A DNA stretch of 64,000 bases from an uncultured Bacteroidota bacterium (GTDB taxonomy: Bacteria; Bacteroidota; Bacteroidia; Bacteroidales; P3): the NCBI GenBank assembly GCA_902762805.1, contig CACWPQ010000014.1, positions 1-64,000 on the forward strand, read 5' to 3'. How positions within the stretch are numbered: position 1 is the first letter of the stretch; every line of letters begins with the position of its first letter. Made by a program: the position numbers and the translations under genes. Below are positions 19,249-44,141 of the stretch, piece by piece. The notes beneath the pieces were generated by a model that made no database searches, was not told the DNA's origin, and worked only from the letters and a program-made list of their open reading frames with translations.

Positions 19249-19353
19249 ACTGCCATGTACGCCATCAGCGACTAGATTCTGGTCTCCACAGTCTGCTCGC
19301 CAACGAGAGCTCTGTTTCCCGGCAACCTAAACTGTTGTCGGGGAAAATATTTT

Positions 19354-19384
19354 TTTGCCATGTCGCGAAAAGTTTGTAAATTTG
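19354..19384 (+). promoter_or_regulatory. promoter of leader RNA copy B
   Basis: TTTG at 19354-19357, 19 bp, TAAATTTG at 19377-19384. Transcription would start near 19390 and run about 316 nt before the first codon of the downstream gene. Confidence 0.75.
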
Positions 19385-19389
19385 CACCC

Positions 19390-19705
19390 GATTTCCGGCG
19401 CGAGTTCCATTGCCGGAGGATGCAAGAAAAGCATTGCTTTTATTGTCCTTTAACAGAAATTTTGGCAAAACTTCAAGAAGGAGGACGGAGCATTATTTGC
19501 TTTCGCTTGGTTGTGTATGCTGCTCACTTCTGCATACCGGCAGGCGTGAGATAAGTTCCTTCGACCGTTCCTTCCAAGGTTAGCCAAAGCCTCTGTTAAG
19601 ACGGACATGAGCACATAAGTCTCATGCCTTTCTTATTTGTGCAACACCCCAACAAAGGAACCCGCCTCACTGGAGGCTTGGAGGCGGAAAACAAAAAACT
19701 CAATC
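19390..19705 (+). ncRNA. long structured 5' leader, copy B
   Basis: This non-coding leader of about 316 nt is homologous to the leader at 43755-44068 (minus strand). Shared blocks are TGCAAGAAAAGCATTGCTTT (19421-19440), GGCGTGAGA (19543-19551) and CTCATGCCTTTCTTATTT (19621-19638). Hairpins visible: CCGGC/GCCGG around a GCGAG loop just after the start, CTCAC/GTGAG around 19523-19550, and CCGCCTC/GAGGCGG directly before the coding region (about 19660-19688). A 64-codon open frame overlapping its 5' part starts upstream of the promoter -7 box and is not credible. Whether it is a cis-regulatory leader or an independent RNA cannot be told from sequence. Confidence 0.75.
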
Positions 19706-21700
19706 ATGAAGAAGACACGGTTCTTATTGATGCTCTTGACGGCGCTTTGCTTGGTCGGTGTGAACGGCAGAGCCCAGTCTAACGCGTTCCACACCATGAC
19801 ATTCATCAACGAAGGTGGCGGCTACTTCTCGTTCAGCCGCTCCACGCCTGACGGCCAAAGTGTCGACACTATGGATTACACTTTTAGGAGGTCTTCCACC
19901 GAGACGCTACAGGTGCAGGAGGGGAGTTCCGTCTATATCGGCCTCTCGTCGGAGCGGCGCGGTTCATTCTTCTATGGAGAGATACGATATGAAGGAGGCT
20001 TTCCGCGATTGCTTCATTTCTATGTGGACAACCGGGAGGTACCCCTCGACAGCATCTACTCTTTCTACGACGAGGAGAGCTTCTATTACTGGTATTCCTA
20101 CACCCTCGCCAACATCACCTCCGACCACACTTTCCGCGCCGTCTTCGGAGAGTGGGAGGAGGACATCAACCCTACGCCGCGACCCACGCACACTATTACC
20201 TTCATCAAACAAGGCAATGGCAGCATGTACGGTGGGGGTAGTGGTGGCAGCATGAGTTTATATGATAGAGATACTCTTCGTTTGACGGAGGAAGAAGGTT
20301 TGTACTTTAGTGTTGAGATTGAGGGTATCAGGCCAGATTCCAGATATTGGTATTCAAATCTGGACCGAGAACTACAACCTCTCCACCTGTACGTGGACGA
20401 TGTGGAAATTCCGCTCGACAGCATCACGAGAAGATTCGATTGCTTCACCTTGGAATACGGGTATTACTACAGACAGGTAGTTACCTCCGACCATGAGGTC
20501 CGTGTTGTATTCGGGCCTGTGGACACCACCCAGCTGCCGCCGCTGCATACCATAGAGGTTGTGAACGAGGGTGGTGGAAACATCGATTATGGTAGTCTCT
20601 CTTCGTACCTCGGAATTGTGATTGATGGTGGGTGGGGTTTTGTACTACTACCCGACACCATGCTGTTCCAAGCCGAGGAGGGAATGGCTGTAAATATTGT
20701 GATGCATTCGTTGAGACCTGAATCCGGGCGATATGAGGATTACTCCAATCCCCGCCTTCTCCACTTCTATATCGACGGCGTCGAAATTCCGCTCGACAGC
20801 ATTTTTGAGGGTTATTACATCGATAGGTATTTCTATAAGTACCCCCTTCCCAACATCACGTCCAGCCACACCGTCCGCGCCGTGTTCGGCCAGTGGGACA
20901 CCCTCCCTTCCATCCACACCATGACCATTGTCAATCAGGGTGGCGGAAAAATCCATTCGCCTCGGTCCAAGGCACACGATGCCATACGAATGTTATTGGT
21001 CTCCGAGGGCGACCCGTTCACCGTCAGGATGGATTCCTACCGCCCCGGCAGCCCCCACTACGGCGACTACGCCAACCCGAAGCTCCTCCACTTCTATGTG
21101 GACGATGTCGAAGTGCCCCTTGGCAGCATCTTCAGCGGCTACGACGCCGCGACGCAGACCCTGCACTACGTCTACACGGATTCCAATGTTACTGCCAACC
21201 ACGTCTTCCGCGTCGAATTTGGTCCTTGGAGCGATGACGTGTACGTGCTGACGCTCGAGGCCAACGACCCGGCCATGGGCAGCGTCTTTGGCGGCGGCAC
21301 ATACGAGGCTGGCACCGAGGCCACCCTCACGGCCACGCCCAACGAGGGCTACCGCTTCGTCGGCTGGCAGGACGGCAACACCGACAATCCGCGCACCGTC
21401 ATCGTCACGGCGGACGCCACCTATATCGCCACCTTCGAGGCCGAGGTGGGCATCAATGAGGTGGACGGCGCCGACGGCATCACTCTCCACCCCAACCCTG
21501 CCTGCACCAAGGTCACCATATTTGGACTTGAGCAGGGTAGCAAGGTATCGGTTGTGGACCTCAACGGTCGTGAGGTCTCCTCGCTCCTCACTCCTGACTC
21601 CTCACTGACGATTGATGTCAGCGGACTGGCCCAAGGCGCCTACTTCGTCCGCATCGTTGGTAAGCACCAGCAGGCTATCCGCAAGCTGATAGTAAAGTAG
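19706..21700 (+). CDS. secreted repeat protein with T9SS sorting domain
   Basis: A 664-residue exported protein. The start at 19706 gives a classic signal peptide (MKKTRFLLMLLTALCLVGVN, cut after about residue 24). Four repeats of roughly 110-130 residues follow, starting at about 29, 162, 281 and 404. Each opens with HT[MI]x and xxNxGGG, contains LHFYVDxxEVPLDSI, and ends TSxHxxRxxFGxW. Residues 513-580 form one InlB-B/Flg_new-like repeat (GYRFVGWQDG, ATYIATFEAE). The last 80 residues (from about 582) are a T9SS type A sorting domain: LHPNPA, VSVVDLNGREV, LAQGAYFVRIV, KLIVK. It is probably displayed on or released from the cell surface. The function of the four repeats is unknown to me. It sits behind leader RNA B and ends in a strong terminator. 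Confidence 0.88.
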   Translation: MKKTRFLLMLLTALCLVGVNGRAQSNAFHTMTFINEGGGYFSFSRSTPDGQSVDTMDYTFRRSSTETLQVQEGSSVYIGLSSERRGSFFYGEIRYEGGFPRLLHFYVDNREVPLDSIYSFYDEESFYYWYSYTLANITSDHTFRAVFGEWEEDINPTPRPTHTITFIKQGNGSMYGGGSGGSMSLYDRDTLRLTEEEGLYFSVEIEGIRPDSRYWYSNLDRELQPLHLYVDDVEIPLDSITRRFDCFTLEYGYYYRQVVTSDHEVRVVFGPVDTTQLPPLHTIEVVNEGGGNIDYGSLSSYLGIVIDGGWGFVLLPDTMLFQAEEGMAVNIVMHSLRPESGRYEDYSNPRLLHFYIDGVEIPLDSIFEGYYIDRYFYKYPLPNITSSHTVRAVFGQWDTLPSIHTMTIVNQGGGKIHSPRSKAHDAIRMLLVSEGDPFTVRMDSYRPGSPHYGDYANPKLLHFYVDDVEVPLGSIFSGYDAATQTLHYVYTDSNVTANHVFRVEFGPWSDDVYVLTLEANDPAMGSVFGGGTYEAGTEATLTATPNEGYRFVGWQDGNTDNPRTVIVTADATYIATFEAEVGINEVDGADGITLHPNPACTKVTIFGLEQGSKVSVVDLNGREVSSLLTPDSSLTIDVSGLAQGAYFVRIVGKHQQAIRKLIVK

Positions 21701-43103: not shown

Positions 43104-43754
43104 TTATAGTTTTCCAAAAGACACAGCGATTATTATGATAACTATCAAAGCCAAAAGGACTATGCCACTGGTAATATCCTCTTTTTTTCTCTTCTCAGCT
43201 TCTTCCTTTTTCTCTAATTTCCTCCTCTCGGCCTCTTTCTTTTCCTCTAATTCTCTCCTCTCGGCTTCTTCCAGTTCTTCTGTATTTTTTCTGGCGATGA
43301 ATGCCTGAGCCTCCTGCTCCAGTTGCTCCAAAGCACGGATGTCGCGCCGGTCTTCATTCAGCCGGTTGTAGTACTGCTCGGCCTGTGCTACGCGGGCTGC
43401 ATCATACGGCTGCATGGCGATGTAGATTTTGGGGTCGATGTATTTGAGCAAATAGTCGTATTTCTTTTTCGTGGAAAAATGAATTCTCAACTCATCGATG
43501 GCCCGGTTGCGCAAGTCTGTCAGTTCCTCATCTTTCGCCACCCCTCGCTGCTTGAGCTCTCCATAGATTGAATTGACCACCTCGAAGCGCTTCCTATCGT
43601 AGCCCGCATTGAGAAAAAGTTCCGGATTGCACTTCTCCTCCAGTTCTTCTAAAAGACTGATATATACCTTGTCGTCCACTTGCTTCACCTTGTTGAAATC
43701 AAAGCTAGGCAGTGTGTTCATGGATTCAAAATTGATGTTTTCTTCTTCCTGCAT
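43104..43754 (-). CDS. tail-anchored protein with two degenerate J-like motifs
   Basis: A 216-residue protein; the ATG at 43754 is chosen because the frame upstream lies in the conserved leader RNA. Two segments resemble the J core of the third gene: EELEEKCNPELF (38-47, HPD replaced by NPE), and YDYLLKYIDPKIY (99-111, replaced by IDPK). The second is followed by DRRDIRALEQLEQEA, matching SRRDLRALQNLKEEA there. Residues 155-192 are a highly charged Glu/Lys/Arg coiled coil. One C-terminal transmembrane helix (SGIVLLALIVIIIIAVSF) anchors it. The base composition is more AT-rich than that of neighbours. Confidence 0.75.
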   Translation of the reverse strand: MQEEENINFESMNTLPSFDFNKVKQVDDKVYISLLEELEEKCNPELFLNAGYDRKRFEVVNSIYGELKQRGVAKDEELTDLRNRAIDELRIHFSTKKKYDYLLKYIDPKIYIAMQPYDAARVAQAEQYYNRLNEDRRDIRALEQLEQEAQAFIARKNTEELEEAERRELEEKKEAERRKLEKKEEAEKRKKEDITSGIVLLALIVIIIIAVSFGKL

Positions 43755-44068
43755 TTTCTTTTTTTCCGTACCGCCCCCCTCCAACGGAATGTTTGTTATT
43801 GTTAAAAAATAAGAAAGGCATGAGGGTATGTACTCTTGCCCATTTGTTCTAAGGTATCGCCAAACACCTTCAAGGGAATGGTTATCAAGGATTTTTCTCT
43901 CACGCCAACCGATATGTAGTCGGCGTGTATTATGCGCCTGCTCCATACAGGTACAAGCCAAGAGCATCCGCTCTTCCTCCCTTGATAATCTTTTGGCGAA
44001 ATTTTAGAACAAGGACTAAAGCAATGCTTTTCTTGCAGTTAATGATTACTTTCGTCTCGCGTAATCGG
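43755..44068 (-). ncRNA. long structured 5' leader, copy A
   Basis: This leader of about 314 nt precedes the J-domain operon and is homologous to the leader at 19390-19705. The shared TGCAAGAAAAGCATTGCTTT is at 44037-44018, GGCGTGAGA at 43906-43898 and CTCATGCCTTTCTTATTT at 43824-43807. Stems: ATTAC/GTAAT around GCGAG, CACGCC/GGCGTG (about 43925-43899), AAGGT/ACCTT, GGG/CCC around GAGTACATA, and CCGT/ACGG just before the coding region. Although an open frame passes through part of it, the shared RNA-like features argue against coding. Confidence 0.75.
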
Positions 44069-44071
44069 CTG

Positions 44072-44102
44072 CAAAAATACAAATTGTTTCCCACCCGACA
44101 AA
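44072..44102 (-). promoter_or_regulatory. promoter of leader RNA A and the J-domain operon
   Basis: On the minus strand TTTG (44102-44099), 19 bp, TATTTTTG (44079-44072). The spacing is identical to the promoter of leader copy B. Confidence 0.8.
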
Positions 44103-44141
44103 ATAAATTTCTCCCTTCGCCACATTTTTTTTCACCGCCGC

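Follow-up and report, generated by a model that had tools for sequence, protein, structure and literature searches.

Two leaders of one RNA family

The question raised by this locus is why two similar and apparently structured leaders stand in front of unrelated genes within one window of 64,000 nucleotides (the whole stretch of DNA analyzed here, from an uncultured Bacteroidota bacterium), and what such leaders might do. A preliminary description had taken them for homologous structured RNAs, and our results bear this out. Leader A (class 1; 19389-19638, + strand) runs from a 5' hairpin to a U-tract, has a covariance-model match of 248.9 bits, and folds better than 200 of 200 dinucleotide shuffles (z -4.1), and leader B (43804-44067, - strand, through its U-tract), a divergent class-1 member, matches with 220.3 bits at 43807-44067 and also outfolds 200 of 200 shuffles (z -6.1). 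Equal promoter spacing had been claimed as well, and the Bacteroidota promoters (TTTG/TAnnTTTG) recognizable in the sequence are indeed equally far from both leaders, at 19350-19384 (+) for A (TTTTTTTG at 19350-19357, TAAATTTG at 19377-19384) and at 44072-44103 (-) for B (TTTTG at 44099-44103, TATTTTTG at 44072-44079). The two exact blocks of 20 nt (TGCAAGAAAAGCATTGCTTT) and 18 nt (CTCATGCCTTTCTTATTT) are present in the same order in A and B, together with a third one of 9 nt (GGCGTGAGA). Behind leader A lies a gene (19706-21700, +) for a secreted protein with an InlB-like repeat and the expected T9SS sorting domain (Pfam Flg_new_2 and Por_Secre_tail). The J-domain label given to the operon behind leader B was not confirmed, since DnaJ did not match any of the three leading genes at E<=0.01; the first of these (43104-43754, -) has only a weak DUF6548/DUF6584 match below the cutoff.

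The 16-nt conserved block GCAAGAAAAGCATTGC of leader A (19422-19437, +), of which the majority of class-1 members carry the version GC(A/G)AGAAAAGCATTGC, led to two extra full-length copies in the source genome (C8:49300-49539 and C10:68109-68348) and is kept in all four class-1 copies of that genome. A covariance model built on these four copies (R1), which scores each of them at 220-253 bits, revealed a divergent fifth copy (C13:22238) and many homologs outside the source genome, with matches in 60 of 99 relatives and best E-values down to about 1e-61. These hits and the extra copies within the same genome establish that the likeness of the leaders is not due to chance. Most genomes of the genus carry 1-11 copies, falling into score bands of 140-250 bits (class 1) and 40-80 bits (class 2), and R1 also matches, more weakly, several single genomes in other families of the order. 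The exact 19-nt core string occurs in at least 118 stretches, and the carriers named among the matches listed include Bacteroides acidifaciens, Butyricimonas synergistica, Prevotella sp., Chryseobacterium, Epilithonimonas, and Reichenbachiella. A second model (R2), made from compact members (class 3; alignment A9 without row L200), received an automatic structure of local hairpins only and so acts mostly as a sequence profile; within the Bacteroidales it matched 83 of 247 genomes, belonging to 64 of 174 genera and scoring no more than 11 copies each, and across the phylum it matched 28 of 395 genomes, these genome counts being lower bounds obtained with strict filters. Similar DNA was found in viral contigs and was not found in plasmid and phage collections. 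The core string, and with it the family architecture, was also seen in a few metagenome-assembled genomes labeled Ignavibacteria, Kiritimatiellae, and Lentisphaerae (L200, L207, and L226), which may reflect real spread outside the Bacteroidota or binning errors. A clustering of copies at contig ends looked suggestive but is compatible with fragmented assemblies, and a comparison for concerted evolution of leaders within genomes showed only a slight difference (identity 0.772 versus 0.757).

Whether a known RNA family already covers these leaders had been left undecided. In Rfam 15, cmscan gave no match to either leader, or to any other, at or above the gathering cutoff, and lenient searches returned chance matches only; the sole hit to Flavo-1 (RF01705), at L230:674-761 (-), falls outside the leader. 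Flavo-1, Bacteroidales-1, Bacteroides-1, and Bacteroid-trp are Bacteroidota RNA motifs of Rfam (PMC2864571) which, like the present family, were found computationally, but no Rfam family matches any leader. In the literature, the conserved sequences matched unrelated primers only, and the main text of PMC8040213 held no match, although unannotated earlier predictions of the leader RNA in supplementary tables cannot be excluded.

Covarying stems, a pseudoknot, and a switch-like 3' part

That the leaders are structured as RNA is demonstrated by compensatory change. In an alignment of 63 class-1 sequences, 95.8% of the cells are paired and 25 pairs are changed on both sides, with a covariation score of 0.284; shuffling lowered it to 0.111, and sliding the partners gave no more than 0.054. 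Lack of homologs outside the genome, lack of covariation, and a conserved protein frame had been named beforehand as grounds for giving up the idea of a conserved RNA, and none of the three holds: outside homologs are many (see above), the covariation is very strong, and no conserved reading frame runs through the leader, which is open in only 2 of 63 sequences, as expected by chance, with block spacings that span all three phases. Hairpins that differ in their bases but occupy equivalent sites in A and B, such as CCGGC...GCCGG at 19395-19416 (+) in A, do exist, but the main covarying stems are long-range ones and not these hairpins: TTTAACAG/CTGTTAAG in A corresponds to TTGTTCTA/TAGAACAA in B, and GAAGGA/TCCTTC in A to AAGGGA/TCCCTT in B, with a further pairing TTTTGGC/GCCAAAG.

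P2 is the clearest helix (19449-19456 with 19593-19600 in A; TTGTTCTA at 44005-44012 with TAGAACAA at 43844-43851 in B), 8 of its 9 pairs being changed on both sides. A test that needs no alignment, applied to 104 non-redundant sequences, agreed with this: complementarity reached 19.3 for own versus 8.6 for swapped partners in P2 (sd 0.34) and 17.2 versus 10.5 in P4 (sd 0.41), a stem that covaries and is formed in A by GAAGGA (19477-19482) and TCCTTC (19569-19574). Within the core AGGY-TTTGGCGA-RCCT, the variable Y and R covary perfectly (T-A 63, C-G 42, T-G 3, and C-A 0; n = 108). The partner of the core loop is TCGCCAAA, which lies some 75-140 nt further upstream and is present in 108 of the core-string matches listed (at least 118 in all); because the pairing takes place inside the AGG/CCT hairpin, the fold is a pseudoknot, which a comparison limited to A and B could not have revealed. 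In leader A, this helix, P3, joins 19460-19466 to the hairpin loop at 19583-19589, and in leader B it joins TTTCGCC (43995-44001) to the loop of the core AAGGTGTTTGGCGATACCT (43852-43870); 4 of its 7 pairs show changes on both sides in the 63-sequence alignment.

Because the core string AAGGYGTTTGGCGATRCCT itself selects for the P3 sequence, an architecture scan meant to remove this bias fixed only P2, the A-rich linker, P3, and the AGG/CCT hairpin and left the helix sequences free. It returned 137 distinct cases in 2.4 Mb versus 3 in reversed sequence. Next to TCGCCAAA, P3 occurs as CGTCGGAA, CGTAGGAA, CCTGAGAA, TCTGGAC, CTTGGAC, or TCTCGCA, and each variant has P3b and P2 strands that fit it, as well as a promoter, S1/T' (see below), and a U-tract; a few of the non-TCGCCA cases, e.g. 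L231 and L267 (in coding sequence) and L145 (minus strand, in a repeat), look like chance matches. The variants added leaders to the source genome (C15, C30, and C24), in which the TCTGGAC-like group alone has seven copies (C9, C11, C12, C16, C18, C22, and C27); the T' string of this group occurs in 24 genomes, all of the same genus as the source. The leaders are part of a wider superfamily that keeps its architecture but exchanges its helix sequences, and the 2.5 Mb of the source genome, searched piecewise, hold about 15 copies or more, different P3 sequence groups included.

The 3' part has the makings of a switch. A strand T' (AAGTCTCATGCC, 19617-19628 in A; ACCCTCATGCC, 43817-43827 in B) is followed by a U-rich stretch (TTTCTTATTT, 19629-19638 in A; 43804-43816 in B), with a mean of 6.45 T in the next 8 nt across 104 sequences of all classes. 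In all classes, T' is complementary to an upstream strand S1 (GGCGTGAGA, 19543-19551 in A and 43898-43906 in B), with values of 22.5 for own versus 17.7 for swapped partners (sd 0.33) and, as examples by class, GGCGTGAG:CTCATGCC, GCATAGGA:TTCTATGC, and CGTGGGCTTT:AAAGCCCACG; the swapped background is high because the classes share these sequences. In the covariation alignment, S1 is held in the P5 arm (19499-19551 in A), where its 5' part pairs with a strand C1 (CGCTTGG, 19504-19510). T' can also pair with a local strand S2 (GGACATGAG, 19603-19611 in A; 12.3 own versus 9.3 swapped), a covarying terminator-like hairpin found in class 1, class 2, and the Ignavibacteria copy and not evident in the class-3 copies inspected. 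The GAC/GTC hairpin of leader A reported earlier exists, but it belongs to this larger hairpin, GGACATGAG..CTCATGCC-UUU. A weaker complementarity (14.4 own versus 12.7 swapped, sd 0.25) links T' to a strand E about 15-45 nt upstream of the ATG; in leader A this is GAGGCTT (19673-19679), complementary to AAGTCTC of T' and 27 nt from the ATG, and in leader B it is GGAGGGGGG (43774-43782), complementary to CCCTC of T'.

Helices that exclude one another, one of them beside a U-tract, are one criterion for a transcription attenuator, regulated premature termination being another, and the leaders satisfy the first by complementarity above swapped controls; that the chain C1-S1-T'-E actually switches, as its resemblance to attenuators suggests, is an inference from sequence. 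We consider it fairly probable that each leader is a cis-acting attenuator or riboswitch-like 5' untranslated RNA of the next gene and belongs to an undescribed Bacteroidota superfamily. Comparative evidence shows the leader's own promoter, the long nested stems P2-P3-P4-P5, with P3 joining an upstream strand to the loop within the AGG/CCT hairpin, and the 3' strand T' beside the U-tract. T' can pair with S1 (part of P5, and then crossing P2-P4), with the local S2 in the classes that have it, or with E near the start codon; that these pairings are mutually exclusive is inferred. According to this model, depending on whether S1 is kept in P5 or released, a terminator would form at the U-tract or RNA polymerase would read on, after which T':E may cover or expose the start region. 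The likely sensor would be the P2-P4 pseudoknot domain; attenuation and this sensor role are both inferred, and the ligand, the signal (metabolite, second messenger, protein, or temperature), and the sign of the response remain unidentified. Exclusive pairings and a U-tract in a 5' leader are shared with attenuators and riboswitches that have terminator and antiterminator strands (e.g. the 1:2, 2:3, and 3:4 pairings of the trp type), but here S1:T' crosses long-range stems and there is no leader peptide, known ligand, or common pathway. Regulatory leaders in Bacteroidota include the tetQ type of Bacteroides conjugative transposons, which class-1 members recall in that they hold ATG AGC ACA TAA in the terminator loop. 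Neither leader B nor class 2 has this mini-ORF (ATGAGCACATAA), and therefore control by a leader peptide is not a feature of the family. Against attenuation, it must be said that no data on transcript ends, read-through, or ligands stand behind it and that termination in class 3 would need S1:T' to act across the pseudoknot, which would be unusual. The lack of a shared pathway among the genes and the high swapped background of S1:T' also weigh against it, as does the position of E downstream of the U-tract, where T':E could have no part in termination and may instead hint at control of translation.

A narrower possibility, unlikely in our judgment and without binding data, is a true ligand-binding riboswitch, in which the P2-P4 pseudoknot would be the binding site of a single small molecule or second messenger and would thereby control a regulon of accessory genes. 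Riboswitches for second messengers occur in many copies per genome ahead of unrelated genes, and the present leaders share this distribution, with exported proteins enriched downstream, as well as a complex conserved pseudoknot and a 3' part like an expression platform. On the other hand, subfamilies differ entirely in the sequence of the P3 helix (CGTCGGAA, TCTGGAC, or TCTCGCA for TCGCCAAA), few unpaired bases are conserved (the A-rich linker and AGG/CCT), leaving little room for a specific pocket, and the downstream genes show no metabolic theme. We are no less doubtful of a leader to which a protein or another RNA binds and which would act mainly on translation or mRNA stability through T':E, with a U-tract that is not a working terminator. 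The complementarity of T':E exceeds chance, E lies close to the start codon, and the class-1 U-tract is broken by C and A. However, the U-rich stretch follows T' in every class, and class 2 and the Ignavibacteria copy have the terminator-like S2:T' hairpin.

Position in cis and downstream genes

The attenuator reading further assumes that the leaders act in cis, and their genomic setting demonstrates this position: compensatory changes mark a structured RNA, a co-oriented gene follows directly on its 3' side, and the RNA has its own promoter upstream, as required of a cis-leader. The downstream neighbor is co-oriented with the leader in 77 of 83 cases (77 versus 6), whereas the upstream neighbor is split 41 versus 42; the median distance to the ATG is 59 nt; and a promoter -7 element, typically 60-80 nt upstream of P3a, is found at a fixed distance in 89 of 102 members versus 16 of 102 in the reversed control. 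Such a bias, at short distance, is not expected if the RNA were a free-standing trans-acting sRNA with its own promoter and terminator and the adjoining gene a bystander. We regard this alternative as improbable, although the leaders do have a promoter, a terminator-like end, and many copies, and their sequence does not follow the downstream gene family (identity 0.777 versus 0.766 overall). Multicopy sRNAs are known in Bacteroides: FopS and GibS of Bacteroides thetaiotaomicron are paralogous and resemble the leaders in copy number, canonical Bacteroides promoters, and a terminator-like 3' end (PMC11697453). FopS, however, acts in trans through a single-stranded 5' seed, has one terminator hairpin, and is mostly intergenic or antisense (PMC11697453), whereas the leaders are 170-260 nt long, have several covarying stems, and lie in cis before genes, so that they do not qualify as members of FopS/GibS.

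In integron attC sites, each cassette is flanked by paired inverted core sites. A DNA-level element of this or a recombinational kind, with inverted repeats extruded as cruciforms, is very improbable here: the genes are accessory, some lie on prophage or viral contigs, and a second conserved element (AGTTGYGCCCGACAC) separates the leader from the ATG or precedes genes in tandem, but no inverted partner of it was seen (by eye only; GTTGYGC lacks a nearby inverted R'' partner), tandem occurrences fall also within operons, and RNA is favored by a promoter fixed to one strand, by compensatory pairs that tolerate G-U, and by the terminator-like end.

The genes placed behind the putative attenuators are diverse and mostly accessory, with BspA leucine-rich-repeat (LRR), BACON, WG, Sel1, MORN, CD225, FHA, and Band_7 domains; 99 downstream proteins matched 60 Pfam families versus 104 families in 57 control genes, and no pathway or metabolic theme emerged among them that would name a ligand. 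By a simple heuristic, signal peptide-like starts are enriched (89 of 177 versus 13 of 57; Fisher p 3.6e-4), reaching 32 of 50 in class 3 and 32 of 44 in group III and only 17 of 63 in class 1. PADLOC gave no ground for claiming an enrichment of defense genes (42 families in 99 case proteins versus 21 in 57 controls) and only single cases, such as the complete type II Zorya operon (ZorA2, ZorB2, and ZorE2) directly after a class-1 leader (L092:5304-8350), of which L077 has a similar layout.

Several further arrangements were observed. In ten loci (L074, L087, L104, L106, L108, L114, L121, L049, L054, and L064), the leader is followed on the same strand by a small unrelated gene without a signal peptide and then by a large secreted protein, often BspA-like LRR. 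The second gene after a class-2 leader encodes a large tubulin-like protein (Pfam Tubulin_2; L051:1273-4428), which the N terminus GIGGTGMRCIES of L047:7151-8752 resembles by eye, and short proteins of the type MxKKYKxxYxPPKVxxVxFRVExGMQ, possibly small exported or precursor peptides, follow class-1 leaders (L095-L097, L067, and L100). A conserved element AGTTGYGCCCGACACGNATNAGGG lies about 8-14 nt upstream of the ATG, either about 45 nt past the leader RNA or alone (L164:6102 (-), L165:1505 (-), L071, L080, L079, L082, L113, L116, L122, and L124), and sometimes ahead of each gene in a tandem row (L161 and L160). Group III leaders (L361, L364, L376, L378, L383, and L384) show a conserved (C)TAACAGCGATGCGCCGATGCTATATAACCGGCA between the leader and a lipoprotein gene.

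Implications for gene control in Bacteroidota

Taken as a whole, the family may, as a tentative conjecture, represent one common RNA switch, defined by its pseudoknot architecture and not by its sequence, that responds to an unknown shared signal through a pseudoknotted terminator and governs accessory, surface, and some defense genes throughout the Bacteroidota, reaching 15 or more copies in a genome of 2.5 Mb. RNA-based gene control is poorly mapped in this phylum, and the superfamily, absent from Rfam 15, occurs in no fewer than a third of the Bacteroidales genomes sampled and stands ahead of many genes for surface, secreted, and accessory functions, most of them unnamed. It would provide an RNA class whose architecture persists while its helix sequences change. 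From a regulatory point of view, it makes the control of accessory and surface genes in Bacteroidota testable, and a signal found for one leader would apply regulon-wide.
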